A stretch of 64,000 nucleotides of DNA from Blautia faecicola. Its GTDB lineage: Bacteria; Bacillota; Clostridia; Lachnospirales; Lachnospiraceae. The notes under the pieces were generated by a model that was given only the letters and a program-made list of their open reading frames with translations, did no database searches and was not told the origin of the DNA. Made by a program: the position numbers and the translations under genes. Location of the stretch: positions 2,885,501 to 2,949,500 of the forward strand of contig NZ_SDKC01000001.1 of NCBI RefSeq assembly GCF_004123145.1. Reading direction: 5' to 3'. Numbering within the stretch: the first letter of the stretch is position 1; each line of letters opens with the position of its first letter. Shown here piece by piece: positions 21,662-42,000 of this stretch.

Positions 21662-21683
21662 CACTGTTCTTTCCACTGTCTGA

Positions 21684-23605: not shown

Positions 23606-23618
23606 ATTCTGCACCCTC

Positions 23619-24371
23619 CTATCGTAAGCTGATATTGCCATTTCCATCCACATCTACATCCACACCCCAGGCACTCTTGATGGCATCCTGTGCGTTATGT
23701 GTCTGTACTGCGTCTGCTTCTGCTTCAATCTGGAAATTATAACCATCATATGCATAAGTCGTGGTGATTGTCTGGTAACCGTCCTTCTCTGTGACATCCT
23801 GTTTTACTTTCGTAGCGATGCTGCCGTCAATCGTCAGGGTATCGCTGAGCGCCAGTGTACTGCTTCCTGCCGGAAGGATGCTGGTGTAATAGAGGATCGT
23901 CCGCTCTGTGGTAGATGCATCTTCATCAACCACCCAGCCATTTCCATCTGTCAGGTTCAGATCGATCAGATCCGGGGAAAGACTGGTATCTTTTACGCCT
24001 TCTTTATTCGTCCAGCTCTTTTTCAGGATCACACGGACATAACTGTCAATGGAGCCGCTGTTTGTTACCTTGATTGCTTCCTCGTACTGTTTTCCCGGTA
24101 CGATTTTTTCTTCTTTCAGAGCGGTCAGCAGATCTCCTGTCGTCTCATCCCATGTTCCATTGGATGCATAATCTCTTTTGCTGACTACTTTGTCATTTTC
24201 CACCAGGCTGACACCGATATTGGAAACCTCTACCTGTGCGCCGTAGTTCTCGCTGTAATATGTCAGTGCTGCCCGGGCACTTCCTATCGTGCTTCCTGCC
24301 AGTAATACAACAGAAGCGGAAAGAAGAGCCACAGTCAGTCCCCCAAGGGGCATTTTCTTTTTCTTACTCAT
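23619..24371 (-). CDS. TasA/camelysin-like protein with SipW-type leader
   Basis: The 250-residue protein starts MSKKKKMPLGGLTVALLSASVVLLAGSTIGSARAALTYYSENY. A leader followed directly by A-L-T-Y-Y is the pattern of SipW-dependent signal peptides (compare TasA and camelysins, ...GGTYAYFSD). The mature domain is beta-rich, with VEVSNIGVSLVEND and EEAIKVTNSGSIDSYVRVILKKSW, the usual strand of fibre-forming TasA relatives. There is no membrane anchor or sorting signal at the C terminus, so it should be released and assembled outside. It lies between two other secreted-protein genes in the same operon. Confidence 0.78.
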   Translation of the reverse strand: MSKKKKMPLGGLTVALLSASVVLLAGSTIGSARAALTYYSENYGAQVEVSNIGVSLVENDKVVSKRDYASNGTWDETTGDLLTALKEEKIVPGKQYEEAIKVTNSGSIDSYVRVILKKSWTNKEGVKDTSLSPDLIDLNLTDGNGWVVDEDASTTERTILYYTSILPAGSSTLALSDTLTIDGSIATKVKQDVTEKDGYQTITTTYAYDGYNFQIEAEADAVQTHNAQDAIKSAWGVDVDVDGNGNISLR

Positions 24372-24382
24372 CTCTCACCCTC

Positions 24383-24892
24383 CTATTCTCCGGTTGTCTC
24401 GCTGGTATCTGCGATCTGTGTCCAGTCTGCATACGGTTCGTTGTTTTCATTGTACAGGACTTTTGTGGATTCCTGAACAACTACTACATTGAAGCTGGCA
24501 TCCGACTCTTTGCTGTCGATCCGGATATCCAGGACCGATGTGCTTTCTCCCGGTGCGATCGGATCGCTGTAATAATAGTATCCGTCCTCTCCCGGTGTCC
24601 ATTTTCCATCGGAATCGCTGTACTGCAATCCATCCTGATATTTGCTTCCTGCCAGTGCTTTCACACGGACATAACAGTCATAATCACCGGTATTTTCCAC
24701 CGATACATGTTTCGTCCAGTTGCTGAAATCTTCTTTCGGTATCGTCTCACTGAATCCCATGTTCAACGTTACCCCTCCGGAGGCTTCCGTATAAGTGGTG
24801 AAATACGCCATCGCTGTTCCTGCGCTGATCCCAGCTGTCAGTGTCAGAGCTGCGGCTGCAAGGCAAAGACTTTTTTTATTTATTTTTCTCAT
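24383..24892 (-). CDS. SipW-dependent-type secreted protein, TasA-like
   Basis: A 169-residue protein with leader MRKINKKSLCLAAAALTLTAGISAGTAMAYFTTYTEASGG; M-A-Y-F-T is the classic start of SipW-processed mature proteins. The body has HVSVENTGDYDCYVRVKALAG, which parallels TNSGSIDSYVRVILKK of the next gene, and a DPIAPGESTSVLDIRI strand, so the two are related fibre subunits. It lacks an anchor. The start at 24892 is preferred; a GTG nine bases earlier is possible. The two neighbours give a plausible major/minor subunit pair for a TasA-like fibre. Confidence 0.78.
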   Translation of the reverse strand: MRKINKKSLCLAAAALTLTAGISAGTAMAYFTTYTEASGGVTLNMGFSETIPKEDFSNWTKHVSVENTGDYDCYVRVKALAGSKYQDGLQYSDSDGKWTPGEDGYYYYSDPIAPGESTSVLDIRIDSKESDASFNVVVVQESTKVLYNENNEPYADWTQIADTSETTGE

Positions 24893-24909
24893 ATCCTGCA
24901 CCCCTTTCC

Positions 24910-25908
24910 CTAATTTGCACTGACGGTGTTATCGTCCTGCTGTTCCCAGCTCCACTCGCCATCTTTATTTTCAAAATGGTTTACGATACCGCTTCCCGGA
25001 ACCAGGCGACCATCATATGTATTGGTAAAGCTTACGCTTACCGGACTGTTGTCTTCTCCCTCGGCAATGATCGTTGCTGTCTGGGTGTCACCGGATGTAT
25101 TTTTGTAGCTTCCGCCTGCATAGATTTCTGTTACTGTCACTTCCGTTCCTGCCGGAAGGTGTTTTACCAGTGTTGTTTTCTTTCCTGCCTCATTAAATTT
25201 GATTGTAACCACATCACTGTAAACATTTTCACCGTTTCTTGTTCCCTCTACCTGGAAGACAAACAGTGCATCCTGGAGAGAAGTATTATAAGCGGTCAGG
25301 TCTTTTACGATCTCCAGATCGCCGTACCGCTGTGTCTGCTGTGGTTTCATGCCTGTTGTCACATCGTAGACCCAGGTGTCATCCGGATGTTCGCCGGAAT
25401 AATAGTTGTTCGGCAGCGATACCAGATATGGGGAAAAATCGTAGGTGTATTCACTGGTCTGTACCGTCTCTGCTGCTACCAGATACATTCCTGTTTTCAG
25501 ATTTTCAATTTTTCCTGTCGCTGTGCTTTCTCCTGCTTTCTTTTCCACCGTTGTCACAGCTGTCGGTTCCGCTTTGGTATCTTCCACGATCTTCATGGCA
25601 TCTTCTGCCATCTGCATCCACGCTTCTGCGGTGGTTGTGCTGCTGATCTGATCCAGCCCAAGTCCTTCATAACCGGTGTGTGCCGTGTACTGTGCTTCCT
25701 CTGTGATATCCGCGATCTGATATACATCGACCGGAATCTCCACCTCATTCAGTTCAGCAAATTCTGTGCCGTCCAGTGTAAAGGTAAGTGAACACTTCTG
25801 TTCGGTATCCACTCCCAGAGCACCGTATACACTGGATAAACCGGCTGCTGATAAAACAGTGATTGCTGCAAGGGTCAGCGCCCCTGCGGTTCTTATTCTC
25901 TTTTTCAT
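24910..25908 (-). CDS. Accessory pilin-like protein (Spy0128/SpaA-type domains), no sorting signal
   Basis: The 332-residue protein has a signal peptide (about 1-30, MKKRIRTAGALTLAAITVLSAAGLSSVYG). Its first domain resembles N-terminal pilin domains (PVDVYQIADITEEAQYTAH ... TGKIENLKTGMYLVAAE ... YLVSLPN). A Spy0128-like domain follows (GDLEIVKDLTAYNTSLQDALFVFQVEG ... PAGTEVTVTEIYAGGSY ... VSFTNTYDGRL). LEIVKDL and the later Asn/Glu residues are where isopeptide bonds normally form. Unlike typical pilins it ends without an LPxTG motif or membrane helix. It follows two class C sortase genes directly. GTG at 25914 is an alternative start. Confidence 0.8.
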   Translation of the reverse strand: MKKRIRTAGALTLAAITVLSAAGLSSVYGALGVDTEQKCSLTFTLDGTEFAELNEVEIPVDVYQIADITEEAQYTAHTGYEGLGLDQISSTTTAEAWMQMAEDAMKIVEDTKAEPTAVTTVEKKAGESTATGKIENLKTGMYLVAAETVQTSEYTYDFSPYLVSLPNNYYSGEHPDDTWVYDVTTGMKPQQTQRYGDLEIVKDLTAYNTSLQDALFVFQVEGTRNGENVYSDVVTIKFNEAGKKTTLVKHLPAGTEVTVTEIYAGGSYKNTSGDTQTATIIAEGEDNSPVSVSFTNTYDGRLVPGSGIVNHFENKDGEWSWEQQDDNTVSAN

Positions 25909-25916
25909 AGTCACCT

Positions 25917-26816
25917 CTATCCCTCCTTCGACATATCATCCGTCTTACCGGAATGTTTTTTGTTCTTCCGGTCAAACAGGAACTTCATGATCAGTATCAC
26001 AAGCAGTGTAACTGCCAATCCTAAGATTAAGTATAACATATAATAATTCTGAATAGCACGCAACATGCTGTCAACCGGCGTATTTTCTGTTTCTTCTTCC
26101 CCGTTATACGGAACTCTCGTTCCACGGACCAGAAGCCGGTGGGAATTGACACCGTACGGTGTGCAGGTAAACAATGTTACCTGATCTTTTCCTTCCTGAA
26201 TCTGCAATGCGTCCTCGAGTGTCTCATGATCATCCTTTTCTACCATATCGAGAATCTGATCCACCTGATAGGCAAGTGTCTCATCCAGCACATGGATGTA
26301 AAACATATCTCCCTGCTGCATCTGATCGATATCGGTAAATAACCGGGCTGCCGGAAGACCTCTGTGGGCTGCCAGTACACTGTGGGTACTCTCACCGCCG
26401 ATGGGAAGCGATGTGCCATTCATATGACCGATTCCCGTCTGTAAAACATCTTCCGCAGTTCCATGATATATGGCAAGTCTGACATTGATTTTCGGGATAG
26501 AGAGATAACCCATGACTCCGTCTTCTGCCACATTCAGCACTTTCCAGTAATCGGTATCTTCTATCTGTGTATCGTCACTGCCAAACACATCCCCGTAAAT
26601 ATTATTCTGAACCAAGGTACTGTCGAATTCTCTTGCTGCCTCCCATTCTTCTGTGTAATCCTCCGGTTTCATATCACTTACCACTTTCTCGTAGTCGCTG
26701 ATCAGGCGGCTCTGCCGGTAAGTATTCCACTGGTTGGATACGGTCGGATAAACAAGGATTCCAAATCCTGTCAGAAACAGCAGCCCGAAGAGAATTCCTG
26801 ATAATTTTCTTTTCAT
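25917..26816 (-). CDS. Class C (pilus-specific) sortase, second in operon
   Basis: A 299-residue transpeptidase that links pilin subunits by forming amide bonds at LPxTG-type motifs. It has an N-terminal membrane helix (about 5-24), the catalytic His151 in AAHRG, Cys218 in TCTPYGVNSHR and Arg227, plus a C-terminal membrane helix (about 261-283) typical of class C. It is a close paralogue of the sortase gene 2 bp upstream; both share NQWNTYRQSRLIS after the first helix. The pair probably share or divide work on the pilins encoded at 27849, 29543 and 24910. Confidence 0.95.
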   Translation of the reverse strand: MKRKLSGILFGLLFLTGFGILVYPTVSNQWNTYRQSRLISDYEKVVSDMKPEDYTEEWEAAREFDSTLVQNNIYGDVFGSDDTQIEDTDYWKVLNVAEDGVMGYLSIPKINVRLAIYHGTAEDVLQTGIGHMNGTSLPIGGESTHSVLAAHRGLPAARLFTDIDQMQQGDMFYIHVLDETLAYQVDQILDMVEKDDHETLEDALQIQEGKDQVTLFTCTPYGVNSHRLLVRGTRVPYNGEEETENTPVDSMLRAIQNYYMLYLILGLAVTLLVILIMKFLFDRKNKKHSGKTDDMSKEG

Positions 26817-26818: not shown

Positions 26819-27712
26819 TTATTCCTCTTTCCGTTCGGAAACCTGTTCCTGTTTTTCTTTCCTTTTTCTTTTGTAGTGTTTATCATATTTCCATAAGCCA
26901 AAGATCAATACTGCTGTTACCGCAAGTCCGATCACTACCCAGAGCAGATAGTTGGTATACAGGCTCATCGGTGATTCCTTTTCTTCTTTTTCCACAACCT
27001 CTTCTTCATACGGTACCCGGTGTCCTCTTACCAGAAGTCTCTGAGTATTTACTCCGTAAGGTGTACAGGTAAGCAGTGTCACGAGATCTTCTCCCGGCTC
27101 CACCGCCAGATCTCCGGTATCTTCCGGTTCTACGGTGCGGATCTGATCCACTTCGTAACAGAGTTTCTGATCCAATACGGAAATCAGGAAATGATCTCCT
27201 TTTTCTAACTGATCCAGATCCGTAAACAGGCTTGCACTGGGAAGACCTCTGTGTGCAGAGATTACTGCGTGGGTATTTTCCCCGCCTACCGGAAGAGAAC
27301 TTCCTTCCAGATGTCCTGCGCCTTTGTTCAGGACTTCCTCGGAAGTGGTATGGAAAATCGGAATTTTAATGTTGATTTTCGGTACTTCCACATATCCCAT
27401 CATTCCGTCATTCAGGATGTTCAGACAGGACATATATTCGTCTCCTGGCTCATCTGATGCTGCTGCGATTGCGAAGGAATCAGGAAGAATACTCGGAAGA
27501 AGTGATGCATTATATGCATTTGCTTTCTCCCATTCTTTCTCATAATCAATGGCTCCCTCACTGTTCTCCGTGCTGACTGTCGTTTCATACTCTGAGATCA
27601 GACGGCTCTGCCGGTAAGTATTCCACTGATTTGCCACCAGCGGATACAGCAACAAGGACAAACCGGCTAAAAATAAAATTCCTGCTATGATAATTGACAT
27701 TTTTTTCTTCAT
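26819..27712 (-). CDS. Class C (pilus-specific) sortase, first in operon
   Basis: The 297-residue enzyme polymerises pilins on the outer face of the membrane. Two membrane helices flank the catalytic domain (about 5-24 and 252-275). The triad residues are His154 (SAHRG), Cys216 (TLLTCTPYGVN) and Arg225. It follows the major pilin gene after a strong hairpin at 27776, so sortase transcript levels are probably lower than pilin levels. The second sortase lies 2 bp downstream. Confidence 0.95.
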   Translation of the reverse strand: MKKKMSIIIAGILFLAGLSLLLYPLVANQWNTYRQSRLISEYETTVSTENSEGAIDYEKEWEKANAYNASLLPSILPDSFAIAAASDEPGDEYMSCLNILNDGMMGYVEVPKINIKIPIFHTTSEEVLNKGAGHLEGSSLPVGGENTHAVISAHRGLPSASLFTDLDQLEKGDHFLISVLDQKLCYEVDQIRTVEPEDTGDLAVEPGEDLVTLLTCTPYGVNTQRLLVRGHRVPYEEEVVEKEEKESPMSLYTNYLLWVVIGLAVTAVLIFGLWKYDKHYKRKRKEKQEQVSERKEE

Positions 27713-27848: not shown

Positions 27849-29426
27849 TTATTTCTGAGTTTTTCTTCTTGTTGCGAAGAACAGACCAGCTGCTACGATC
27901 ATGATTGCGCAACCGCCGATGGTGAAGATTGTTGTACCGATACCACCGGTAGATGGCAGTGCACTCAGTTTCGTATTTTTAATTTCTGTAACTGTTGTAG
28001 TGGTTGCAATTGTTGTAACTTTTCCTTCTTTGTCATAAGTAGCGGTATAGGTGGAAGTATTCTTTCCATCGATTGTAATGGTATAAGTATTCAGCGTACC
28101 GTCTTCGTTGTAAGTTGCTGCGATCACAACGGTATGTTCTGTTTTGTCAATGGTAAATCCTTCCGGAGCTGCTGTCTCTACTAAGGTGTAGGTTCCTTGA
28201 TCCAGTCCGTTAAAGGTAAGTCCACCATCTTCACCGGATTCTGCTGTATAAACTTTTCTGGTCTTGGTATTGGTTAATGTAAAGGTTGCACCTTTTAATA
28301 CTTCTACTACTTTTTCATCCGGTTCCTGGCTCTTTTCTTCTACTTTACTGATCACATTACCTTTTTCATCTACTTTGATGATCTGGTTTACTTTTTCTGT
28401 GTATCCCTGAGTAGCTGCGCTTAAAGCTGCACCGATGCTGAAGGTATAAGTATAAGTTTTGCTGTCTGTGGTTTTTACATCACCCTTCGGGTTGGTGGTG
28501 TAGGATAATGTTGCTTTGTTGGTATTCGGATCAAAGTTTACCGTTGCCTGATCATTTACAGTTGCGGAATAGGTTACTACCAGTTCCATGCCGCCATTTT
28601 CTTTTGCATAATCACTCTTAACTGTAAGAGTAAATCCATGATCGGTTGTCTCCACCTTCTCGATCATATCAGCGGAAATATCTGCACCGTTGATCTTGAT
28701 GCTGTTTTTGTCTAATGTCAGACCAGCACTCATGGTATCGGAAATGGCTACGGTTACGGTATCATACTGTTTGCTGTAGGAAGGAATAGCAGTTGTGATT
28801 TTGAAATTAACTGTATCGCCAATTGCCACATCGTTTCCTTTTGCGGTTTCACCACCTACGATCTCTTTTTTAATAGAAGGAGTGGTGGATTTTGCATATG
28901 CATTGCTGGTTTCCAGAGTCCAGTTGGAATCTGCATTGACCGGGTTGGATGTCATGGTGTTGTCGCTTCCGTTTGCGGAATAGTATACACCAACTAACAT
29001 TGGGTTATATACTTCGTCAACCGTACCGGATACGATTACCAGCCAGTAACCTGCATTCAGGTCAGCTGTGAAATCTGTGTATTTTACATCATCTGCAACT
29101 GCTGCGCCTGTCATGGTTTTGCTTTTAAGAGTTACAGCACCGCTTGCAATCTGTTTTGCAATTGCGGTTACTTCATCGGAAGTCGGAGCCAGAACATCTG
29201 CGATCGCAAGCTTATTATCGGTTTTCACATATCCGATAAATCCACCGTCATACTGTGCTTTTGTGATCTGGTATGCGGTTACGGTTGCTGCTTTTTCTAC
29301 ATTCTGTACGGTTCCTTTTGCTGTATCATTTGCTGTCGGTGTTGTTGCTGCGAATGTCGGTACGCTCATAGCCAGTACCATTACCATCGCCATAATCACT
29401 GATAAGATTCTTTTCACTTTACTCAT
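27849..29426 (-). CDS. Major (backbone) pilin with LPSTG sorting signal
   Basis: The 525-residue protein is an isopeptide-forming fimbrial backbone subunit. It has a signal peptide (1-26, ending PTFA) and an N-terminal domain with KAATVTAYQITKAQY and NAGYWLVIVSG. A central domain (about 185-335) follows with DTVNFKITTAIPSYSKQYDTVTVAISDTMSAGLTLD. The SpaA-type C-terminal domain carries LKGATFTLTNTKTRKVYTAESGEDGGLTFNGLDQGTYTLVETAAPEGF, with the E-T-A-A-P-E-G-F box. LPSTGG at the end precedes a membrane helix and RRKTQK. Class C sortases downstream should polymerise it. The pilin-motif lysine was not assigned. Confidence 0.93.
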   Translation of the reverse strand: MSKVKRILSVIMAMVMVLAMSVPTFAATTPTANDTAKGTVQNVEKAATVTAYQITKAQYDGGFIGYVKTDNKLAIADVLAPTSDEVTAIAKQIASGAVTLKSKTMTGAAVADDVKYTDFTADLNAGYWLVIVSGTVDEVYNPMLVGVYYSANGSDNTMTSNPVNADSNWTLETSNAYAKSTTPSIKKEIVGGETAKGNDVAIGDTVNFKITTAIPSYSKQYDTVTVAISDTMSAGLTLDKNSIKINGADISADMIEKVETTDHGFTLTVKSDYAKENGGMELVVTYSATVNDQATVNFDPNTNKATLSYTTNPKGDVKTTDSKTYTYTFSIGAALSAATQGYTEKVNQIIKVDEKGNVISKVEEKSQEPDEKVVEVLKGATFTLTNTKTRKVYTAESGEDGGLTFNGLDQGTYTLVETAAPEGFTIDKTEHTVVIAATYNEDGTLNTYTITIDGKNTSTYTATYDKEGKVTTIATTTTVTEIKNTKLSALPSTGGIGTTIFTIGGCAIMIVAAGLFFATRRKTQK

Positions 29427-29542: not shown

Positions 29543-32500
29543 TTATTTTTTCAGCACCCCCTTGTCTCTTAATTTAAATATGATCAGAACGCCTGCAAAG
29601 ATTAGCAGCATTCCACTCATCATGATTTGGAAGATTCCGGTGTGACCGGTGGATGGAAGGTTGTATAACACTTCATTTTTTACAGTGATTACATACACAT
29701 CTTCTTTCTTCTCACAGGATGCGATATCCTCCGACGGTCCGGATACTGTTACTCTTGTATCACCTTCAGCTAAAACATTAATCGTAATCACTCCCGGTAA
29801 TACTACATAGCCGTCCGGAGCTTTTACTTCTGTCAGTGTGTAAGTACCATGTTCTAATGGTTCTTCCAGTACAAGACCTTCTTCATCAGAGATATACGTA
29901 CCAGTTGTATTAGATCCAAGTTTCACCGGATTACCTTCGCTGTCTTTTAACGTGAATTCTGCACCTTCCAGTTTCAACTCTGTGTTGGTTCCGGTTTTAA
30001 TGATTTTAATTTTTTCAGAATTCTTTGTGTTGGTAATGATCTGCTTATTGGCATCCTTGGAATCTTTTGAGTAGGTTACCTTGTAGGTATTATCATCGAT
30101 AGTAGTGCTTCCATTATCCTGAATCATCGAGTATTTCCTGTTTTCGTATGTAATGGAACCCTTTTTATCCGGTTTCAATTCTCGAACGCCACCATAATTA
30201 TCGGTTTCTTCTACTATGAAAGAGCCCTGGAAATTATTCTGGCTGCTCAGTTTTAACACTTTGTCTTCAACCGGATCGCCATTTTTGTCAATCAGCTGTA
30301 CAAGCACTACCTGTTTTTTAATATCGCTGGCATCCATGCCAACCCATTTCTTTTCGACCGTGATTTTTTCGACCTGAACAACCGGATCATTATAAGATTC
30401 CGTATGGTTAACGTCTTTATACGTATAGCTTATACTTGCAGAAGCATTGGACTTAAATCCTTTCTTTCCAGAAGAAGTTCCTGTGCTGACCGCCTGATAA
30501 CCATCATCGCTTGCATCGGAAGGAGTATCTCCCACTGCGTTATAACTGTTTCCTGTCTGGTATTCCTGGAATGCTGCTTCATTTGGTACGACGTTAGTGA
30601 TTGTCAGATAATAGTAATGATCTTTTTCCAACTTATGATTAGGTGCAAATGTCAGTGTCGCAGTTTTCGTAGCTGCATCATAACTTGCCTCTGCTTTTTT
30701 TCCATTTGCGAATGTAACGGTGCCGCCTTGACTTAAACTAACTGTATGAGTCGCACCAGTCGGAGTAAACGTTCCATTTGCATCTTTTACAGCTTCTTTA
30801 ATTACCAATCGGCTCCCATCTGTCGGATCTACATATTGGCTTAAAGTATCGGTGATTACTACATTTTCACATTCATATGTCAATACCTCTCCGACTATAC
30901 TCTGGAATTTATTTCCCAAGTCTGCTACGTTTGTCAGATTACTTGACTCTTTTGTAGATGCTGTTGTTTTACTTGCCACATCAGTTAAAATCTGTATTCC
31001 AGTTGTTGTTCTATCTTTCTCCGGGTATCCATACCAATCATATGTATATATATCTACATTATCAGGCAAACCTATGCCAATCGCATAAAACTTATCACAA
31101 GAAACTTTGGCTGCTGATGATAACGCATTATTATATGTTGTGGTATCTGTATAACTTCCGCCTCCCGATGGTCCATCACCATAATACGTTGGTTCACCAT
31201 CCGTTAAGAAAATTACAATTTTCTGTGGATTTGGTCGGGCTTGTGTACTGCTACTTGTACTAATCGCATCTGCTCCCAACGATAGTCCTTTATCATAATT
31301 GGTTCCACCATCTGCCGACAAGGAGTCAACATAATCCACCAACTTATTTCCATTAACCCAGTTTTTAGTTTTCAGATTTGCCTTTTTTGCAAATGTAACC
31401 AGTTTATAACGAACATCTACAGTGTTATTGCTATTGAATGTTTTAACCAGTCCTTTGATTGCTTCCTTAGTAACTTTCAATTTTGTTTTGTTCTGATTGT
31501 TTATAGTTACTTTGTCCCCCATACTTCCGGAGGTATCAACAATCAAAACAACATCCACATTTGCTTTTTTGGTCTCTGTTCCTACGGTTCCGGATACATC
31601 TAACGTAATATCATATGTTCCATCACTATTTCGTTTGATGTATTTTTCATGGTATATATTTGTTTCCGGATCATCCGTTGTGCCGCCGTCGTTTACCACG
31701 TAATTGTTTTTAAATTCAACGGAACGAGCATCTTTATTTCCTACAGTGATACTTCCCTGTGTTTCCTGATCGCTGTTTGTTCCGTCGATAAATAAGGAAG
31801 TATTTCTTGTATATCCATCTACATCCAGATTACCGTCTGTTGCCTGTTCGCTGACATTCAAAGTATCGAACTCACTTTGTGGTATCGACAATACATAGGT
31901 TCCGATATAAGTTCCTACAGAATCCGCATCACCAGACCAGCTCCATGACAGATCACTATAGCCAAGCGTATGAGATCCAACCGTAAATGTCAGTTTGTTT
32001 GCCAATGCACGGGCATTTGTATACGTTAAACCTGTGATTGTTTTTGTCAGTGTGACGGTCGCTGTGCCTTCTACCGGTGTCAGTCTATCTCTTGTCAACT
32101 TGATATTATCCAGGAAGTTTCCAACCGTTTTGTTTCCAGATGCTGTTGTACCTGCTACAAAGAAAAATCTGGTGGAGTACTGTTCTGAACCTTCCGGTAC
32201 ATTATACACACCCTGGTGAGTGGTCCACTTCTGATCGTCATCTCTGTAACTTACAACTGTCGCGCCGGAATAGTTTTCCGGATGATTAACAATATCCTGT
32301 GCTTTTGCTTCTGTTGTTACATCATACTGTTTTGCCAATGCCGTAGACATGATCAAAACGTACATCGTATCATATTCCGATGTGTTATCAGCCCTAGATC
32401 CTCTGGCACGATGGGACAGCTGATAGTTTAATGTCTCACCTGGTGTTGTCAGAATATCCTGATATAATGCACCTGCTGCTTCACAGTTTAGTTCTGCAAA

Positions 32501-32881
32501 CTGATTTCCCTCGGCTGCTCCGTCCGAACCGTACCAACTGTATGGACTCTTATAAGAATCATCTTTGGTATTGATAATTTCAATATCACAACCAGCCTTG
32601 CCTCCGGTTCCAATTCCAGTTGTCTGCCATACGCCACCGCTTGAAGCATAATCTGCATTTGAATACTGGTAATGATTATAGTCTTTGTATTTATCCCGAA
32701 CATTCGGAGTTTCGAATCCACCGTTTCGCACCTCATAATAAGAAGTAACACTGTAGGTTCTGCTTTCTGCTATCGCAGTAGTTCCGTTCTTTGGCAGACC
32801 ACTGTTCTCGATATCACTCTTATTGAAAACTGCAACTTTATATTGTACGCTTGTATTCGTCACATTGTTTTCTGTGTATCC
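29543..32881 (-). pseudogene. C-terminal part of pilus tip adhesin (VWA domain, LPSTG), cut off by IS
   Basis: About 1,110 codons remain. They encode a carbohydrate-binding-like domain (GGFETPNV ... YQSNADYASSGGVWQTTGIG-like region), then a von Willebrand A domain with the MIDAS motif DTSGSMG and FLTDGEPT. SpaA/Cna-B repeats follow, ending in LPSTGHTG with a membrane helix and KLRDKGVLKK. The first codons now come from an insertion sequence, so the signal peptide is missing and the product cannot be exported from this frame. The other part of the gene is at 35260-36610; removing the insertion joins them in frame (ALNGGAL + GYTENN). Confidence 0.88.
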
Positions 32882-32969
32882 TAGAGCGTGTTTGAAAAAT
32901 AAAAATTGCACAAAACGCATGTTTCATTTCCCTTTTTCATGATAAAATAAAGAAAAAGGGGTGTTCACT

Positions 32970-33700
32970 ATGTTGAGACGATATGAGTTAACAGATGAAG
33001 AATGGAACCGCATTGCACCGTTACTCCCGCCTGAAAATACAGGGAAACAGGGACGTCCACGAAAAGATAACCGCATCATTCTTAATGGGATGGTCTGGTT
33101 GGCACGCAGTGGTGCACCCTGGCGAGATCTCCCAGAACGTTATGGATCCTGGCAAACCGTATATAGTCGTTTTCGCAAATGGATTGATGATGGGATTCTG
33201 GATAATATTTTTCGCGTTCTAAGTCTGGAAGCTGAATTGGAAGAACTATCTATAGATGCTTCTATTGTTCAGGCTCACCAGCATAGTGCAGGTGCTAAAA
33301 AGGGGGGCTCCCAAATGAAGTCGGACATAGCCGTGGAGGAGCCAGTACCAAAATCCATGCAGTAGTAGATGCCTATGGGTATCCGGTGTATTTTATGATC
33401 AGTGAAGGGCAGCGTAATGATATCAATTACGCAATCCCTTTGTTGGATCATATCCGAATAGATGGCAGCAAGGTTCTGGCGGACCGTGGATACGATAGTA
33501 ATCAACTGATGGATTACATTTACGACCACGGAGGAGAGCCGACCATTCCATCCCGTCGAGGAGCTAAATTTGACCGTTGTTGCGATTGGTGGCTTTACAA
33601 GGAAAGACATCTGGTCGAAAATTATTTTTTGAAATTGAAAGCATTTCGCCGAATAGCAACACGGAGAGCGTTTCAAGTTTTGTGTAAACAGAAAAACTGA
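32970..33700 (+). pseudogene. IS427-type transposase, two frames, 3' end cut by IS256
   Basis: Frame one starts at 32970 (MLRRYELTDEEWNRIAPLLPP) and contains the first catalytic Asp in ELSIDASIVQAHQ. The second part (KIHAVVDAYGYPVYFMISEGQRNDINYA ... VLADRGYDSNQL ... HLVENYFLKLKAFRRIATR) is in the -1 frame. The change falls on A_AAG_GGG at 33300-33306, a slippery heptamer used by this IS group for programmed frameshifting. The last ~22 codons (YDKLAFTYLGFLCIVSILIWLK) lie beyond the nested IS256, at about 35162-35231. Unless IS256 leaves precisely, the transposase lacks its natural end. Confidence 0.85.
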
Positions 33701-35153
33701 TATAAGATATGTCATTAGTTATCGAGGACAGAACCTGTTTTTCAGGGTTCTGTCCTTGTTTGTATTATAATGCAGTTTTAAGGCATGTCAAGCAGGACTG
33801 GCTGTGCCAGCCCTGCCTAGCATGCATTCTGCTTATAACCTTTCCAATCTTTCTTCGAAGAAAATTTCCAGCTGAGAATGGATCTGTCCCCAATCCTGAC
33901 GGTGTCCCGTCCATTTCTTGGTGATATCTATCATGGCCAGATACAGCATTTTCAAGAGACTGTCATCGGATGGAAATACCGTCTTGGATTTGGTGACTTT
34001 CCGGAGCTGGCGGTTAAATCCTTCAATCGTGTTCGTGGTATAGATCAGACGTCTGACAGCTTCCGGATACTTAAAATACGTTGAAAGATTTGCCCAGTTA
34101 TCTTTCCATGACTTTGCAATCTTAGGGTATTTCCCGCTCCATTTTTCGTCAAAGCTGTCCAGTTCTGCCAATGCAACTTCTTCTGTAGGAGCTGCATATA
34201 CACGCTTCAGATCTGCCATAAGTGGTTTGATCTCTTTGTAAGAAACAAATTTCGTGGTGTTCCTGATCTGATGGATGATGCACTGCTGGATCTCGGTCTG
34301 GGGAAATACTGCTTCAATTGCCTGTGGAAAACCGGTCAGTCCATCCACACACGCAATCAATATATCTTCTACGCCCCGGTTTTTCAGACCATTCAGGATG
34401 GAGAGCCAGAACTTGGCACTTTCATTTTGACCCACATACATCCCGAGGACATCCTTACGTCCTTCCATATCGATCCCAATCGCAATGTAAACAGCACGTT
34501 TTACAATCCGCCCCTCATTACGGGCATGGAAATGGATCGCATCCATAAATACAACAGCATACACACTTTCTAATGGCCTTTCCTGCCATTCTTTTACTAT
34601 TGGCAGGATCTTATCAGTAATCCGGCTGACAGTACTGTCGGAGATCTCAAGATCGTATAATTCACGCATGTGGCTTTCTATATCGGCAGTAGTCATTCCT
34701 TTTGCGTACATGGAAATGATCTTTTCTTCCATGTCCTGCGTAATCGAATTCTGATACTTCTTTACAACCTGTGGTTCGAAGTCACCTTTTCGATCCCTTG
34801 GAATATCAATCTCCATATCTCCGTAACTGGTATGTAACGTTTTCTGGGAATATCCATTCCTGGAATTATCGGTTTCTTTATTTCGATAATCATACTTGGA
34901 ATATCCCAGTTCTTCATCCAGTTCCTGATCAAGGGCACCTTCCAAAATGATAGACATCATATCCCGCATAATGGAATTAACATCTGTTCCATCTTTTACT
35001 TTTACATTGTTTTCTTTCAGGTAGTTTCCCATGAGTTCTCTAAGTGCTGCTTTTTGTGGTGAATCCTTTTTTCTTGCCATAAAATAAACCTCCAAACTGA
35101 GTAATTCTATCTTACATCAGTTTGGAGGTTTACACAAACTTTGGGATACTCCC
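33664..35153. mobile_element. IS256-family insertion sequence nested in the IS5-family element
   Basis: The element is 1,490 bp and flanked by an 8-bp direct repeat, GCAACACG, at 33656-33663 and 35154-35161. The ends are imperfect inverted repeats of about 26 bp that share TTGTGTAAAC and, further in, AAACTGATRTAAGATA. It carries one intact transposase. A hairpin at 33724-33757 (AGGACAGAACC/GGTTCTGTCC) probably ends its transcript. The insertion splits the transposase gene of its host element near the 3' end. Confidence 0.92.
33833..35080 (-). CDS. IS256-family (mutator-type) transposase
   Basis: A 415-residue DDE transposase that appears intact. The N terminus reads MARKKDSPQKAALRELMGNYL. 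It carries GYSQKTLHTSYGDMEIDIPRDRKGDFEPQVVKKYQ, the catalytic segment AVVFMDAIHFHAR (first Asp), VLIACVDGLTGFPQAIEAVFPQ-like second Asp region, and NTIEGFNRQLRKVTKSKTVFPSDDSLLKMLYLA with the final Glu. The start at 35080 is set by GGAGG eight bases before the ATG; an in-frame TTG at 35095 is less likely. Because it looks functional, it is the most recent mover in this nest. Confidence 0.94.
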   Translation of the reverse strand: MARKKDSPQKAALRELMGNYLKENNVKVKDGTDVNSIMRDMMSIILEGALDQELDEELGYSKYDYRNKETDNSRNGYSQKTLHTSYGDMEIDIPRDRKGDFEPQVVKKYQNSITQDMEEKIISMYAKGMTTADIESHMRELYDLEISDSTVSRITDKILPIVKEWQERPLESVYAVVFMDAIHFHARNEGRIVKRAVYIAIGIDMEGRKDVLGMYVGQNESAKFWLSILNGLKNRGVEDILIACVDGLTGFPQAIEAVFPQTEIQQCIIHQIRNTTKFVSYKEIKPLMADLKRVYAAPTEEVALAELDSFDEKWSGKYPKIAKSWKDNWANLSTYFKYPEAVRRLIYTTNTIEGFNRQLRKVTKSKTVFPSDDSLLKMLYLAMIDITKKWTGHRQDWGQIHSQLEIFFEERLERL

Positions 35154-35259
35154 GCAACACGTTATGATAAATTAGCATTCACCTACTTAGGCTTCTTATG
35201 TATCGTTTCAATATTAATTTGGTTAAAATGAACAACTTAAAATGTTTTTCAAACACGCT

Positions 35260-36610
35260 CTAGAGCTCCTCCATTCAATGCGATATAAAGTTCTGTTCCG
35301 TCAGCTTTGATATCGGAACCAAGTCTTTTTCCAGCACTGCTTGTGTATGTAGTCGGTTCCTGTGCTTCGAATGCACCACCATTAATGCTTCTGTACCACA
35401 CATAACCATACTCTTCGGTATTGTCTGCTGTATAGGATGCCGTCAGTTTCCCGTTATCATCAGTCAGGGTCACCGAGTTATTTGTCGTATCTGCTGCGTA
35501 AGTTGTTGGATCAGGAGTCTCTTCTGACGGATCCTGAACTGTTGAATCATCCTCCCTATCCTCTCCAGGATCTTCCTGTTCCGGTGTATTTTCTACATAG
35601 CATCCATAGATTGTAGATTGTCTTCCTTCCATCTGAATCTTGGAAGCAGTTCCGTCTTCATTCAATTCAATATCTGACAGATCATAGTCTTCATCAATAT
35701 TTTCAATACTCTGACCAGCTTCCTGAAGTTGTTTTACCAGTGCTGCTCTCTGAACAATCTCTTCCAGTTCTTCTTTATCTCCGGTCACTGTCGGATCTGC
35801 CGGATCCTGATAGAAGACTGTTGCGTTCTCTACATCGTCAATCTGTGTTTTGTCACCTGCCATGGTGATCTTGATCGGCTGCAGAGAATCTGTTTCTGTA
35901 CCGTCTACTTTGAATCTGATGTTGTATGCTACATACTGACCAAGTTCTTTTTCAGCCGGAATCTTTTCTTTCATCAGATTTTCCAGCTGAGCTTTTTCAG
36001 CATCTGTCAGTGTGTTGACTTCCATTGTGATCTGGGAACTTTCTCCTACCTGAAAAGCTCCCTCCGGAATTTCTGCACTTACTGTTGCAATTACATTTCC
36101 AAGCTCGTCTGTGAAGTCCTGCTTCAGATCCATCTTCTGATTATAAGTTACGGTTTCACCGTTTTCTTCTTCCTGCGGAGTCTGCGCTTCCCCAACTGCT
36201 GCATTCGTATTTTCAGAAGTTGTTGTTGTCCCTTCTGAAACAGTTGCAGGTTCTTGGGCTGCAGGTGTCTCTGCTGCAGGTGCTTCTGTTGTCGGCTGTT
36301 CTGCTGCAGGTGTTTCCGCTGTCGGCTGTTCTGCCGGAGCTGCGACGGTTGTTTCCGGTTCTGCGACCGGTTCTGCGGTGACTTGCTCCACCGGTGCGGT
36401 TTGCTCCTCGGCTACTGCCTGGCCTTCATCTGCTGCGTAGGCAGCCACGTCCATGTCATTGGCAACGGCTTCGTCCTGAGTCTGTACTTCCGCTTCCTGT
36501 GGGTATTCGGTCTGTCCGGTCTCGGATGCGAATATGAAGCTGCTGTTGCTCAACGCAACGACCATGCAAAGCACTAATGCCAGCAGTCTTTTCTTTCCTT
36601 TACTTTTCAT
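35260..36610 (-). pseudogene. N-terminal part of pilus tip adhesin, cut off by IS
   Basis: About 450 codons. A signal peptide (MKSKGKKRLLALVLCMVVALSNSSFIFA) is followed by a long low-complexity stretch (about 35-150) with repeats of PAAEQPT, TAETPAA and TEAPAAE. A folded region follows (VTYNQKMDLKQDFTDELGNVIATVSAEIPEGAFQVGESSQITMEV). After ELYIALNGGAL the frame runs into the insertion sequence and stops within four codons. The product would be secreted but has no LPxTG anchor. The start has GGAGG five bases upstream and overlaps the end of the small gene at 36600, so the two are coupled. Confidence 0.88.
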
Positions 36611-36788
36611 GGCTTCCTCCTTCCTCTTCATCCAAAGCACTCTCTATCAGTTTTAATAATTCTAAAGCGCTGCGGAACTGCTGCTTTTCTTTTTTTTCCA
36701 CCCAGGTCACCGAACCCTGCCAGGTGGCATTCTGTCTGTTGTAAATATTTAAGATAAAGGTCTCCGTCTTTTTCGTAGAATCGCTCAC
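36600..36788 (-). CDS. Small protein with RQxATWQG motif, leads the pilus operon
   Basis: A 62-residue cytoplasmic protein, MSDSTKKTETFILNIYNRQNATWQGSVTWVEKKEKQQFRSALELLKLIESALDEEEGGSHEK. The segment from FILNI to ESAL matches the C-terminal part of the 146-aa protein at 37160 (TFHIYVKYRQSATWQGILAWKEGKREMEFRSVLELIIEMDAIL). It begins with GTG after AGGAGG and overlaps the start of the tip adhesin gene by 11 bp. I know no function for this motif; its place between a BTAD regulator and pilin genes suggests a regulatory or chaperone-like part in fibre production. Confidence 0.65.
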   Translation of the reverse strand: MSDSTKKTETFILNIYNRQNATWQGSVTWVEKKEKQQFRSALELLKLIESALDEEEGGSHEK

Positions 36789-36830
36789 AGCTGTTCCACC
36801 TCCTTATATGATCCCGTTCTCTATAGTAGT

Positions 36831-36859
36831 ATTATATAAAATGCACCGTTACGAAAAGC
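36831..36859 (-). promoter_or_regulatory. Possible pilus operon promoter, good -10 only
   Basis: On the minus strand TATAAT (36831-36836) lies about 45 bp before the GTG start. No consensus -35 is found 16-18 bp away; the region upstream holds two facing GTTAC/GTAAC elements (about 36847-36852 and 36909-36914) in very AT-rich DNA. A weak -35 with nearby dyads fits a promoter that needs an activator such as the BTAD protein. The 36860-37056 interval has no gene. Confidence 0.35.
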
Positions 36860-37056
36860 ATTACACTCATTATTATCTTTTACTTTTTTTTATTTTTTCT
36901 TATTTTTGTAACGTTTCATCCAAACTATTATCGAAAATAGCGGATTTTTCCTCATTTCTTCTATCTATATATTATGTTTTTGGATTTATGACTGCTTTTT
37001 CTGAAAATTTATCTCCTTGGGACAATCAAAATTGATCCAGTGGATCAATTTTGATT

Positions 37057-37112
37057 ATCGCTGCAATCGTCAAGATCTCGTGCAATCACGGACTTTGACT
37101 CGTTGCCCGCGT
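37057..37112 (-). repeat. Family B repeat, copy 2
   Basis: Reverse complement of the 8095-8150 unit at 50 of 56 positions, same length and same position directly behind the T run of a terminator. Four of the six changes are C/T or A/G transitions, and the central GTGNTTGCAC palindrome is mostly kept. Confidence 0.75.
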
Positions 37113-37150
37113 AAAAAAAAGAACTATCGCCTTCTCAAACGATAGTTCTC
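37113..37150 (-). terminator. Intrinsic terminator after the 146-aa gene
   Basis: GAACTATCG pairs with CGATAGTTC (37121-37149), followed on the minus strand by T8. It ends the unit containing the BTAD regulator and the 146-aa gene, and separates it from the pilus operon. Confidence 0.85.
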
Positions 37151-37159
37151 TTCTGTCTT

Positions 37160-37600
37160 TTATTTTCTTCCCAGTATCGCATCCATCTCTATGATCAGTT
37201 CCAGCACACTGCGAAATTCCATCTCCCGCTTTCCTTCTTTCCATGCCAGAATTCCCTGCCAGGTAGCGCTCTGGCGGTATTTTACATAGATATGAAACGT
37301 TGCACAGGTGCCGCTCTGCTCCATCAGCTGACGGTACTCCATACTTTTTTCCTGTTTTTCTCTGATTTTCTGTTTTTCCGATCGGAACTCACGAAGAACC
37401 ACGGAGGACTCCGGAAAACGGATGTTGTCATAAAACTCTTCCATATATCGGATCAGCTGTACGATATTTTCAAAGGACTGTGGTTCCCGGGAATAACAGT
37501 GATATAGTCGACCGGATATCTCGCTGGCCCTACTCTCGTCCACGCACACGGTAATGAGGTTTGGCGCTGCCAGTATTTCTCCATTCCAATATTGACTCAT
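37160..37600 (-). CDS. RQxATWQG-motif protein downstream of BTAD regulator
   Basis: The 146-residue protein has two parts. The N-terminal half (about 1-75) contains GRLYHCYSREPQSFENIVQLIRYMEEFYDNIRFPESSVVLREF. A Lys/Glu-rich helix (76-95) leads to the C-terminal motif domain (about 100-146) shared with the 62-aa protein at 36600. It has no signal peptide or membrane helix. Only 25 bp separate it from the BTAD gene, so the two form an operon. Function is unknown. Confidence 0.7.
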   Translation of the reverse strand: MSQYWNGEILAAPNLITVCVDESRASEISGRLYHCYSREPQSFENIVQLIRYMEEFYDNIRFPESSVVLREFRSEKQKIREKQEKSMEYRQLMEQSGTCATFHIYVKYRQSATWQGILAWKEGKREMEFRSVLELIIEMDAILGRK

Positions 37601-37625
37601 GTTTCACACTCCTGTTCCTAGGTAG

Positions 37626-38891
37626 TTATTTCCAGTGAAATTCATTTTTCTGAAAACTTAATCTTGCATTAGGGTTTTCCACCTCTGCGATGGAAGAAAC
37701 ATAGTATTCCAGGTATCGGTTCCAGGATCCGTGTCTGTCGGTAAAACGACCGGCGATCCTGCGGAAAATCATATCACAGTTTTCCTGATTGACTCCCACC
37801 AGAAGAATCAGAAACTGTGACGGACTGTATTTGGAAAAGGAATCTCCGCGGCGAAGGCTTCCTTTTACCGCCCGGTGAAGTTCCATGGACATCACATCCA
37901 GTTTTTCCCGGTTTTCCATCGGATGCCCGTTGCCGTCTGTCAGCGAACATACCATTAAAAATGCGGACTGTCCGTTTCGTTCGATCAGTCTGCGCACCAG
38001 ACGGTAATTGTCACGGAAACTCGGAAGGCTGCAGTAAAAAGCGCCATCCTCATACTCCGGTTCTTTCAGATCTTCTTTGATCTCCCCTGCCGCATGGTAC
38101 GTTCTTCCCATCCGTTCGCTCATCTCCTGGAACTGGTTCATCATACGCTCCGAAGGTGTGATTCCCAACTCTTCAAAGAACATCCTGGATGTAGCGTCAT
38201 ACAGCTGATACGCTTCTTTATAACGGTTCATTCCCATCAGTGCATCAATCTTTACGGACTGCCACTCGTCAAACGGATAAATCTCCATCGCCGTATCCGT
38301 CAGTTCCAGAATCGTATCGTATTCCTGTTGTTCTTTCTTATATTCACACAGACTGCGGAGGGCTTTCGAATATTTTTCTTTGTAATGGACACTATTCATA
38401 ATCACCCAGTCTTCGCCGGACTGCATCGGAAGAAGTTCTCCCTTATACAGCCGGCACGCCTGCTCCCACAGTTCCATCTTCTTCGCTTTCTCTTCCGCCT
38501 GTTCCCCTTCCCGGATCAGTTCCACGAAACGAACCACATCCAGATCTGTTTTCATCGGACTGCGCCAGTAAAAAACACCTTTTTCTTTTACGATATAATC
38601 GTACTCCGGCAGCCCTGCCTCGATCAGCATCTTGCGCAGACGGAACACGGTGACACGCAGGTTATTTCCCACATTTGCCAGTTCCTCTCTTCCAAACAGA
38701 TCATCCAGCAGCTGTGCTCTGGAGATTCCACCGTTTCCCTGATTCTCTGTCAGGCTGGAATGCAACAGGATCTGCAGCAATTTTACTGCCTTGGTTGCCG
38801 AGTTTCTTTTGAACGTGATTGGCTGATCTCCATAGGTTATGGAGAACCTTCCCAACATATTCACTTTGAGTTCCGGTAACTGTTTGTCCAT
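37626..38891 (-). CDS. SARP-like transcriptional regulator: winged helix, BTAD, degenerate GGDEF
   Basis: A 421-residue paralogue of the regulator at 20170, with the same three domains: winged helix (about 5-105; LKVNMLGRFSITYGDQPI, LRVTVFRLRKMLIEAG), BTAD repeat domain (about 115-260; YKGELLPMQSGEDWVIMNSVHYKEKY) and a GGDEF-like end (about 290-405) whose active loop reads KYSPSQFLILL. The start at 38891 follows GGGAGG. The two regulators stand at either end of the pilus/fibre locus, both on the same strand; together they are the best candidates for its activators. Confidence 0.83.
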   Translation of the reverse strand: MDKQLPELKVNMLGRFSITYGDQPITFKRNSATKAVKLLQILLHSSLTENQGNGGISRAQLLDDLFGREELANVGNNLRVTVFRLRKMLIEAGLPEYDYIVKEKGVFYWRSPMKTDLDVVRFVELIREGEQAEEKAKKMELWEQACRLYKGELLPMQSGEDWVIMNSVHYKEKYSKALRSLCEYKKEQQEYDTILELTDTAMEIYPFDEWQSVKIDALMGMNRYKEAYQLYDATSRMFFEELGITPSERMMNQFQEMSERMGRTYHAAGEIKEDLKEPEYEDGAFYCSLPSFRDNYRLVRRLIERNGQSAFLMVCSLTDGNGHPMENREKLDVMSMELHRAVKGSLRRGDSFSKYSPSQFLILLVGVNQENCDMIFRRIAGRFTDRHGSWNRYLEYYVSSIAEVENPNARLSFQKNEFHWK

Positions 38892-38940
38892 ATGGTTCCC
38901 TCCCCTCATCTACTCTTCTTTTTTATCATAGAAAAGTAAA

Positions 38941-38975
38941 TCGCCTCCGGTATGGTATCTCCCGGAAGCGACTTC
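38941..38975 (-). terminator. Terminator after the hybrid kinase gene
   Basis: TCGCCTCCGG pairs with CCGGAAGCGA with one mismatch. It sits 40 bp beyond the stop at 39012 and before the regulator start; the minus-strand T run is broken (TTTACTTTTC). Confidence 0.55.
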
Positions 38976-39011
38976 TCGCTGATTTTATTTTAGTCAGTAA
39001 TTTCTTCTTTG

Positions 39012-42000
39012 TCAACGCAAAGCATTACACTTTTTTACTTTCCATGATTTTCTGATTACCTTCGCCAGTTCTTCCTCACGGATCGGTTTTGCGATATAGG
39101 CATCCATTCCTGCTTTCCGGCAGGTTTCCCGGATGTCTGCTGTCGTCTGTGCAGTCATCGCAATGATCGGAATCGACGCCGCATCCTCCCGTTTCAGATC
39201 GCGGATATGCTGTGTGGCTTCCATTCCGTCCATCACGGGCATCATCACATCCATCAGGATCGCGTCGAAGCTGCCGGCAGGTTTCTGGGAAAACAGAGCT
39301 ACTGCCTCCTGCCCGTTCCATGCTTTTTCCACTTTTGCCCCTGCTTCCTCCAGATAGAACTGTGCGATCTCCATATTGATCTCATTATCCTCTGCCAGCA
39401 GGATCCTGCGGTCACGGAGGAGCTCCGATATATCTTCTCCCACTGTGTTTGTTTCTGAAGCAGCTGTCTCATTGACGGTGAACGGCAGACGGAAGGTAAA
39501 TGTAGTTCCCTCTCCACGGACACTCTCCACCTGAATGGTTCCGCCCATCTTCTCCACCAGCCCTTTGACGATCGACATTCCAAGTCCGGTTCCCTGATAG
39601 CGTGTTCTGGCTCCGTACTGTTCCTGGGTGAATGGCTCAAACAGCTGATTCTTTACAAAGTCCCTGCTCATGCCGATACCGGTATCTGTGATTCTGAATT
39701 CGTACCAGGCTGTTTTTCCGTCACAGGATAATTCTTCCGCGCAGGTATCCACGGATCCCTGCGGTTTGTTGTATTTGACCGCATTGCTGAACAGGTTCAG
39801 CATGATCTGGCGCAGCTGCAACGGGCTTCCTTTCAGTGCTGTATGCTGTATATTTTTCCGGTGTGCCCGGTGTGTGATCTGATTCTTTTCCAGAAGCGGA
39901 TTCATCAGTACTGCCACTTCCCGCATCAGCACTTCCATGTCAAATGGTTCATTCTCCGCCCGGATCTGATTGGTTTCCAGTTTGTTCATATCCAGTACGT
40001 CGTTGACCAGCGCCAGCAGATGATCGGCAGATACCTGCATCTTATCCATACATTCTTCCAGCTTCTCCGGGTTATGTTTATTTTTCCGAAGGATCTCCAG
40101 CATCCCCATGATACCGTTGATCGGTGTACGGATATCATGGCTTATGCGGTTCATGAAGTCTGTCTTGGCTTTGCTTTCTGCGTCGGCCTCCTGCACCGCT
40201 TTTTGCAGCCGTTCTTTTTCCTGTTCTTCTTTTTTATGGAATTCCGAAGTATTCTTAAACAGGATAATTCCATGTACAGCACTGCGTTCTTTTCTGGTCT
40301 CCCGGTCATACAGCAGTTCCTGAGACATCAGGATCGTCTTCTGCAGCCAGATCATCCCGCCATCCTGTTTTTCTTCCCGGTACTCTACGGTGATCTGCTT
40401 ATCGCCTTCCCGGAAGCGTTTCAGCAGTTTTTCTGAGGAATCCATGATCCGGTAGCTTTCCAGCGTATCGTCTGTCACCTTCTGACTCCGTTCTCTGCAG
40501 TAGGCATCGTAAGAGCATGGCATCTCCCGGTCGATCACTATGCTTTCCCGTTTCATATGGTAGAATGCATTTTCCAGGCAGTCATTTGTCAGATCTACTG
40601 TATACGCCGCTTCCGCTGTTTCCATTAATGCGTCTACATAATTGCTGTTTTCCAGAATAGACTGTTTCATCTGCTCGTAGTAGCGGATCAGTTCCTGTTT
40701 TTCATCCCTCTGGTTCTGTCTGCTGTCCCGGAAGTTCTCCTGCCCCAGTATAAAATGGTGTAGTCTTCCATCTTCTGTGGCATCCAGAAATCTCAGGATC
40801 ACTCTTCCCCGGTGAACCACATTCTCTTTTTTGTAACGATAGGGAATCTCCAGCTGAGGGTTGTCCTTTGTCAGCTGCTGTTCCAGGGAGGTCAGCTGTA
40901 AGGTCTCCCAGAATTCTTTTCTCACCCGGTCGGTTGCCAGTTCTTCCACGATCTGTTCCACCGCCCCGGAATAATTACCGTCTTCCGCGAGGAAGTATCC
41001 GGTGCTTGACCGCAGGATCTCATACTGATCCATCAGGGCATCACAGTACAGACAGTCCGAAAAATGGTATTTTTCTTTTTGGATCCATTCCAGCAGTTCA
41101 TAGGTTTTCTGCTGTTTTCGTGTCGCTTCCTCGATCTTTGCCCTGTTTTTGTCCACGTACATGTTTTTATCTGCCAGCCGGAACAGTTCCCGGAGGGTGG
41201 CACCGGCAAAGTCCAGAGAGATTGCGTACCCTGCCGCATAGCTGATCGGCATCTCCGGGTGTTTTGCAGAGTAGGTTTCCATCTGTCCGCGGATCTTTTT
41301 TAAGGTTTCCCGCATCTTCGAATGGTCAGTCTTTTGAAATATCGCGATGAATTCATCTCCCCCGTCCCTGCCGACAAAGTTTTCCGGATCTACCGCAAGG
41401 CGAAGCTGTTCGGCAAAGGAACGGATATATTCATCTCCTTTGTCATGTCCCAGATTGTTATTGATGATTCGCAGGTTGTTCAGATCAAACACACAGATGG
41501 CTGTACTCTCTTCTTCTCCGAGAGGTGTGGGATCGCTCAGGATCTCTTCGCATTTGTTTTTGTTCGGCAGCCCTGTGGATTCATCCAGATAGACTTTCTT
41601 TCGCAGGATCCTGTTTTGTGCCGCATAGCGGAGTGCCCGAAGCAGTTCCGCACCAATCAGAAGTACCAGGCCGACAATATCTGCAACTACAATCTTTTCA
41701 AGATGATCCAATGCGGTCGCTCTCTTCTGTGAATATCGTTCCGCAACGCCGGTTACCTCATCACACATTCGGAAAAACTTCTCGCTCATACTGATGATTT
41801 CTGTCTGTGCATAGCCTTTTTGCCGTACTTTCGTGATTTCTTTTTTTAGTTCCGTAAAGTCAGCTGCAAGTTCATCCATTTTCTCCTGGAATTCTGTATC
41901 CTCCAGCCGCACCAGATCCAGTTCGTCGCTTCCGTAGCGAAGTCCGTTGATGATCGCTTCCACGGTTGCTATCATTTCGTCATCCGGATTCTCTGACACT

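Follow-up and report, generated by a model that had tools for sequence, protein, structure and literature searches.

A pilus tip adhesin gene of Blautia faecicola split by nested IS5-family and IS256-family elements

Introduction

What is left of a sortase-dependent pilus when the gene for its tip has been cut in two, and can the cut be undone? The question is raised by the stretch of DNA analysed here, 64,000 nucleotides of Blautia faecicola (the window; C1:2885501-2949500 of a 3.74 Mb genome in five contigs). On its minus strand, from 36610 to 29543, is the gene for a VWA/LPSTG pilus tip adhesin, which is split by an IS5-family insertion sequence (IS) and an IS256-family element nested within it (Table 1). 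The reading that we consider probable is that a single tip gene, the first of the only class C sortase pilus locus detected in this genome, was recently cut by the IS5-family element, which was in turn entered by the IS256-family element, and that this represents a loss rather than a switch.

Results

The two halves of the tip gene are in phase

The tip gene is cut such that each half lacks what the other half has. The signal peptide, the adhesive domain and the LPXTG motif are divided over two open reading frames (ORFs) and do not lie on one chain. The N-half ORF spans 35249-36640, passing through the right CTAG into the IS5 end, where it stops at 35249; its start is probably the ATG at 36610, which is preceded by AGGAGG. 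The N half aligns to the N-termini of homologues in four other genomes. The C-half ORF spans 29543-32920 and borrows its ATG from the IS5 end. Its LPSTG was read from the ORF, and the Pfam anchor model is absent from the C-half matches. Pfam searches at E values up to 1 gave no domain in the N half or in residues 1-420 of the C half. A structure predicted for the initial part of the C half had a mean pLDDT (predicted local distance difference test) of 36 and was not used.

The phase was determined by codon counting, the letters of the two halves not being joined. The N half ahead of its CTAG has 1,347 nucleotides or 449 codons, and the C half including its CTAG copy (32884 to 29543) has 3,342 nucleotides, which is 1,114 codons with the stop. 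The halves are therefore in phase and make up a single frame that encodes 1,562 residues before its stop. The initial annotation had proposed that the halves join without a frameshift into an ancestral protein of about 1,560 residues; the count confirms this, and no mismatch of reading frame was found at the joint.

Table 1. Features of the pilus locus and the inserted elements (window coordinates)
Feature	Position	Strand	Details
Further pilus-cluster protein (DUF5979)	24910..25914	-	Pfam; homologues beside pilus genes in G030 and G040
Class C sortase	25917..26816	-	Pfam, NF033745
Class C sortase	26819..27712	-	NF033745
Backbone pilin	27849..29426	-	LPSTG, isopeptide-type domains; Pfam, NCBIfam
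Tip-adhesin C half	29543..32880	-	VWA, DUF7604 and SpaA domains (Pfam); LPSTG sorting signal
IS5 target duplication, left copy CTAG	32881..32884		All three intact copies have these flanks
IS5-family element	32885..35259	+	877 bp once the inner element and one copy of the 8-bp duplication are subtracted; NCBIfam transpos_IS5_3
IS256 target duplication, left copy GCAACACG	33656..33663		Single copy in intact IS5 elements
IS256-family element	33664..35153	-	1,490 bp; NCBIfam transpos_IS256, 443.7 bits (cut-off 150)
Hairpin	33723..33758	-	At the expected transcript start; terminator-like on the + strand (terminator scan)
Perfect TTGACA-16-TATAAT putative promoter	33764..33791	-	12/12 matches; directed out of IS256 toward C half, pilin and sortases
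IS256 target duplication, right copy GCAACACG	35154..35161		Exact match to left copy
IS5 target duplication, right copy CTAG	35260..35263		Exact match to left copy
Tip-adhesin N half	35264..36610	-	449 codons: signal-peptide-like start, A/E/P/T-rich stretch; ORF
BTAD-like regulator (presumed)	37626..38909	-	Synteny anchor 5' of the tip gene; 89% identical orthologue in the same place in O. intestinalis

The insertions are nested

The nested order claimed at the outset, with an IS256-family element inside an IS5-family element inside one tip adhesin gene, is borne out by the ORFs, the duplications and the intact IS5 copies. The CTAG duplication is exact and its right copy lies at 35260 as annotated, but the left copy starts at 32881 and not at 32882; the 8-bp duplication was correctly placed at 33656 and 35154. 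The insert of 2,375 bp consists of 877 bp of IS5, 1,490 bp of IS256 and one 8-bp duplication.

A 4-bp repeat alone is weak evidence of insertion. Three uninterrupted IS5 copies of 877 bp are present elsewhere in C1, letter-identical to the two IS5 parts of the window, with CTAG on both sides in all three and GCAACACG once in each. They establish both where the outer element ends and which 8 bp the inner one targeted. Their identity suggests recent movement. A fourth relative in the genome is 80% identical.

Membership of the IS5 family is indicated by NF033580, which the first transposase ORF matches with 138.8 bits (cut-off 110), the second ORF alone reaching 82.6 bits, and by terminal inverted repeats (AGCGTGTTTGAAAAA at both ends). 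The transposase is encoded in two overlapping frames, 32961-33365 and 33386-33700, which meet around an A5G6 run, and the identical copies have the same arrangement. A two-frame transposase joined by frameshift is known from some IS5 groups. In the window the last residues of this transposase are lost, its C-terminal end being replaced by IS256.

Around the intact IS5 copies (L002, L004 and L005) an AGCGTGT-type end directly adjoins one CTAG in all three, as if the element often landed at the ends of related elements. A search of a phage collection also gave IS5-like stretches of 80-88% identity in three human-faecal phage records (MT835477.1, MT835968.1 and MT836320.1).

The IS256 transposase (33833-35095) matches Pfam Transposase_mut and is oriented in the direction of the pilus genes. 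Full-length identical copies occur in the same genome at C2:11546 and C1:2395935. The 8-bp duplication is exact in the window and at C1:2395935, and inexact at C2:11546 (ggcattgt/ggcattca). Both ends carry GTGTAAAC, which contains the subterminal motif TGTAAA named for the IS256 family in PMC7780238. With the element as query, no match was found in plasmids.

Homologues in other genera are single genes

It might be argued that there were always two adhesin genes here, with a transposon between them. Both halves are open frames with a possible start, that of the C half having AAGGG ahead of the ATG in the IS5 end. The phases nevertheless match, only one half has a signal-like start and only the other has LPSTG, and homologues in other genera are single ORFs with parts of both halves. 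In G030 a single ORF of 1,360 amino acids has matches to the N half over 1-337 and to the C half over 658-1356. The single ORF in G040, with 1,873 amino acids, matches the N half together with the end of the C half. Within the genus, G004 has one ORF of 1,858 amino acids with matches to a portion of the N half and to most C-half domains. Because of the homologues in other genera two separate genes are rejected, and we give that explanation almost no credence; as judged from these sequences, the tip adhesin was a single gene.

A wider survey used a model of the N half against 397 genomes of the family, with at most five candidates scored per genome, and matched 82 of them at E <= 1e-3. For the count of ORFs, rows at E <= 1e-10 were kept, four rows from contig C3 (see below) were removed, and one row was taken per ORF. 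Beyond the genus this gave 18 ORFs in 16 genomes, of which 16 have frames of 1,059-2,329 amino acids and two run off contig ends (G032:C54 and G251:C129). For six of the 16 long ORFs the end was read as well: five finish with an LPxxG-like signal and the one in G032 has none; the other ten were assessed by frame length alone. No match to the N half was found in a plasmid search. Among the papers listed in literature searches, none dealt with IS-broken pilus tips in Lachnospiraceae as judged by title and abstract opening, which does not show their absence from print.

The occupied site and the assembly

A further alternative is a reversible switch, in which precise excision of the IS5 unit would restore the tip gene in part of the population, as a form of phase variation. 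The exact CTAG duplication and the matching phase would allow this, and the three intact IS5 copies are a possible source of transposase in trans. However, the assembly was searched for an empty site with a single CTAG and only occupied sites were found. The transposase of the window copy has lost its C-terminal end to IS256, and IS256-family elements are described in PMC7780238 as moving by copy-out/paste-in, in which the donor copy is regenerated. The same locus has moreover decayed in the congener Oliverpabstia intestinalis (see below). We consider a switch to be unlikely, and on these grounds the expectation of the initial annotation that the tip could return if the insertion leaves is weak, although precise loss by rare recombination is possible.

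The C half as query has one match in the genome, while the N half has one in C1 and otherwise matches only contig C3 (G000:C3, L046). C3 is an 11.5-kb palindrome of window 33725-40748 and 33725-38235, with 99.5-99.6% identity, and turns exactly at the IS256 hairpin. It is probably a fold-back artefact of a read or of the assembly. The assembly has one clear artefact, from this very region, and an error might by the same token have placed two transposons in an intact gene. This is very improbable, given that the duplications are exact and have the lengths seen at other copies, that the IS5 and IS256 ends each fit intact copies elsewhere, and that C3 itself carries the occupied right-hand junction.

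The tip gene of Oliverpabstia intestinalis is broken by other elements

Five genomes of this genus were compared, the window's own among them, with one per species. The genus Oliverpabstia was named in a collection of pig-intestine isolates (PMC7738495), and its member O. intestinalis (Lachnospiraceae) is represented here by BSM-380-WT-5A (G002). Its locus is syntenic with that in the window, the upstream gene being 89% identical and a kinase 94%. The upstream gene, which serves as anchor, gave only a weak match in G003 (E 9.8e-4) and no match in G001.

The broken tip gene of O. intestinalis lies on contigs C32 (L056, NZ_VUMS01000038.1, 1-6960) and C46 (L078, 4990-7897). Its N part has 532 residues and is ended by a mobile element that encodes a tyrosine recombinase and a MobQ-like relaxase, each under the curated cut-off of its NCBIfam model. 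This is followed by a short middle piece of the tip and then an IS end that we take to be ISL3-like. Contig C46 starts with a similar IS end, followed by fibro-slime (below cut-off), SpaA and VWA domains. Searched apart, the pieces are collinear with one ORF of 1,527 amino acids in G032 (1-521 to 16-538, 5-85 to 537-612, and 26-287 to 608-867); the link between C32 and C46 is made by synteny and this collinearity only. The flanks of the ISL3-like end, CCCAAATT and AATTTTGG, form no duplication, which speaks against a single, simple insertion.

Directly after the tip remnant, C46 continues with the orthologue of window 23615 (94% identical across 4.9 kb). This locus therefore lacks the end of the tip gene, the pilin and both sortases, together with the genes as far as 23619. 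The one class C sortase found in the O. intestinalis genome is on C67, in a different pilus cluster. We considered whether the pilin and sortases had never been present, as G032 lacks homologues in 18 kb around its tip-like gene. Since the remnant seems to end within a SpaA-type domain, deletion is preferred over original absence, though not proven.

A third and weaker case of a broken tip is G004, where the tip ORF starts from a 100-bp IS end (L058, C55, 1-100) that adjoins GTTAAC and occurs at three contig ends. The three contigs that carry the other IS end gave no N-terminal partner; weak matches on C93 fall in a low-complexity stretch of what was read as another gene. GTTAAC lies beside the IS ends in all six contig ends seen (L058, L082-L086).

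The shaft genes are open

The class C sortases and the LPXTG backbone pilin occur together, as expected of a sortase-dependent pilus locus, and the pilin and both sortases are open frames. Between 37300 and 27500 no terminator was predicted on the strand of the pilus genes. The only class C sortases found in this genome are the two of this locus, and the pilin as query matches only itself, so that no backup pilus of this kind is evident.

Adjoining the pilus genes, at window 19575-24901, are a signal-peptidase-like gene and two BsaA/TasA-like proteins (below the NCBIfam cut-off), an arrangement that recurs in G030 and G040. On the other side of the tip gene, at about 37053-37127, is one copy of a dispersed repeat of about 70 bp, with another at 8077-8152; the copies are 82-92% alike and occur at about 29 places in C1, and the same repeat lies close to the end of L078 in O. 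intestinalis.

IS256 has a conserved putative outward promoter

Just beyond the stop of the IS256 transposase, and on the same strand, is a perfect putative promoter, the sole perfect site of our scan. About 0.002 such sites would be expected by chance, estimated as positions x strands x spacings / 4^12. It is followed by a predicted hairpin (-19 kcal/mol, z -5.8, 0 of 200 shuffles in a dinucleotide control).

Left ends of related elements were taken in two sets from the matches listed in the family search. They are not independent, being from related elements, two of them in genomes already counted. The first set covered 14 of 19 new loci, 13 of which aligned to the left end (L131 did not); 11 of the 13 have the perfect promoter, the exceptions being L133, which is partial, and L122, which lacks the left end. 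Among 20 further left ends, 12 are perfect, one has 11 of the 12 positions (L150) and seven have no promoter. Taken together, among the matches listed, 23 of 33 other left ends have the perfect promoter (L123-L130, L132, L134, L137, L143-L148, L151-L155 and L158), one has it nearly and nine are without it. Eight of these nine do not align with the window there, and L149 aligns with a decayed TTGACG-16-TATCAG.

In the 12 sequences aligned first (the window and 11 others) all 12 hexamer positions are invariant, as against one of 16 in the spacer, and the distance from promoter to end is 100-102 bp. A hairpin is predicted in each of the 12 single-sequence folds, with z of -3.3 to -7.5 against mononucleotide shuffles, which are a weaker control. 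The consensus fold of the IS256 ends was poor (-1.1 kcal/mol, three pairs changed on both sides), the gaps shifting within the hairpin, and it was set aside. The conservation points to a function of the putative promoter for the element itself, which is perhaps to drive the transposase across a circle junction. Its direction toward the C half, the pilin and the two sortases would then be a side effect.

Discussion

What is described here is a surface gene knocked out by IS insertion, an ordinary event of a known kind. The IS5-family element inserted into the tip gene, probably recently, and the IS256-family element then entered it. The N half would be exported without anchoring and the C half, having no signal peptide, would stay inside, so that no tip subunit would be displayed. 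The pilin and sortases would probably still be transcribed, by read-through and from the outward IS256 promoter, and the cell would most likely make tipless or few fibres. In other species shafts are able to form without tips. Fibres without a tip are plausible, though unproven, because the sortases and the pilin are open, no terminator is predicted and IS256 supplies a putative outward promoter; it is possible that there are no fibres at all. Gene loss, and not a switch, is what this looks like, since in the congener the same gene is broken by other elements and the pilin and sortase genes are missing.

Several points weigh against this interpretation. Expression of the shaft genes and tip-free assembly in this organism are both inferred from sequence, and one genome was compared per species. 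Promoter-like sites are not in excess, with 12 in 4.8 kb compared to 9.0 +/- 3.1 in shuffles. Finally, the genes ahead of the two further full-length IS256 copies appear to be read in the opposite direction, so that the orientation in the tip gene may be due to chance.

A stronger proposal is that loss of the tip is recurrent and selected in the genus, for example by phages, immunity or niche, the shaft being rescued and kept on by the conserved, complete outward promoter and hairpin leader of IS256. The tip is indeed broken by different elements in the window and O. intestinalis, and perhaps in G004, as against none of 16 assessable ORFs beyond the genus, and the promoter is oriented toward the shaft genes. 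However, the numbers are tiny, and the orientation of a single insertion is a coin toss. The window was chosen for being broken, and recurrence is therefore tested only by O. intestinalis and weakly by G004. The shaft genes of O. intestinalis are missing too, which fits plain decay. We regard selection as rather doubtful, and plain loss of the tip remains our preferred interpretation.

The adhesive properties of gut commensals are commonly deduced from lists of genes, and the sortases and pilins would label this cluster as a pilus despite the broken tip. Two features raise the case above an ordinary IS knock-out: the separate breakage in the congener, and the conserved putative promoter, directed outward, through which the shaft genes may stay on. 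As this gene is broken in a congener too, and by other elements, tip loss can be tested across isolates. The conserved promoter suggests that IS256 insertions in the family may activate whatever lies past the left end, which, if true, changes how IS256 insertions in gut genomes should be read.

The locus resembles known sortase-dependent pili, among which PMC5536039 lists VWA tips. That source also describes, for the Corynebacterium model, a tip attached to the first of the backbone pilins. As in the SpaC, EbpA, RrgA and PilA pili, there is a VWA tip, an LPXTG backbone and class C sortases. The Lachnospiraceae version differs in its DUF7604 domain, its BsaA/TasA-like neighbours and its broken tip.

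The inner element shares with IS256 and ISCth4 the transposase family, the 8-bp duplications, the TGTAAA subterminal motif and a promoter related to the ends (PMC7780238). The same source describes the ISCth4 promoter as a hybrid of both ends, with the -35 and -10 in opposite ends, such that the junction is needed. By contrast, the left end of the element described here contains a complete predicted promoter, some 100 bp from the terminus, together with a hairpin leader; each copy could therefore fire outward without circularising. A gut bacterial IS with an outward promoter is also represented by IS614 of Bacteroides caccae, whose effect on neighbours has support from RNA sequencing (PMC7260799). 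IS614 is a different IS from a different phylum, and the promoter described here is known from its letters alone.

A close parallel in setting is spaCBA of Lactobacillus rhamnosus, where a promoter made by iso-IS30 drives the pilus genes and decayed remnants are found in other strains (PMC3744422). Both cases involve a gut commensal, a sortase-dependent pilus, an IS-rich locus and decayed remnants in relatives. In L. rhamnosus the IS lies outside the pilus genes and switches on the entire operon, whereas here it lies within the tip gene and may serve the shaft genes only.

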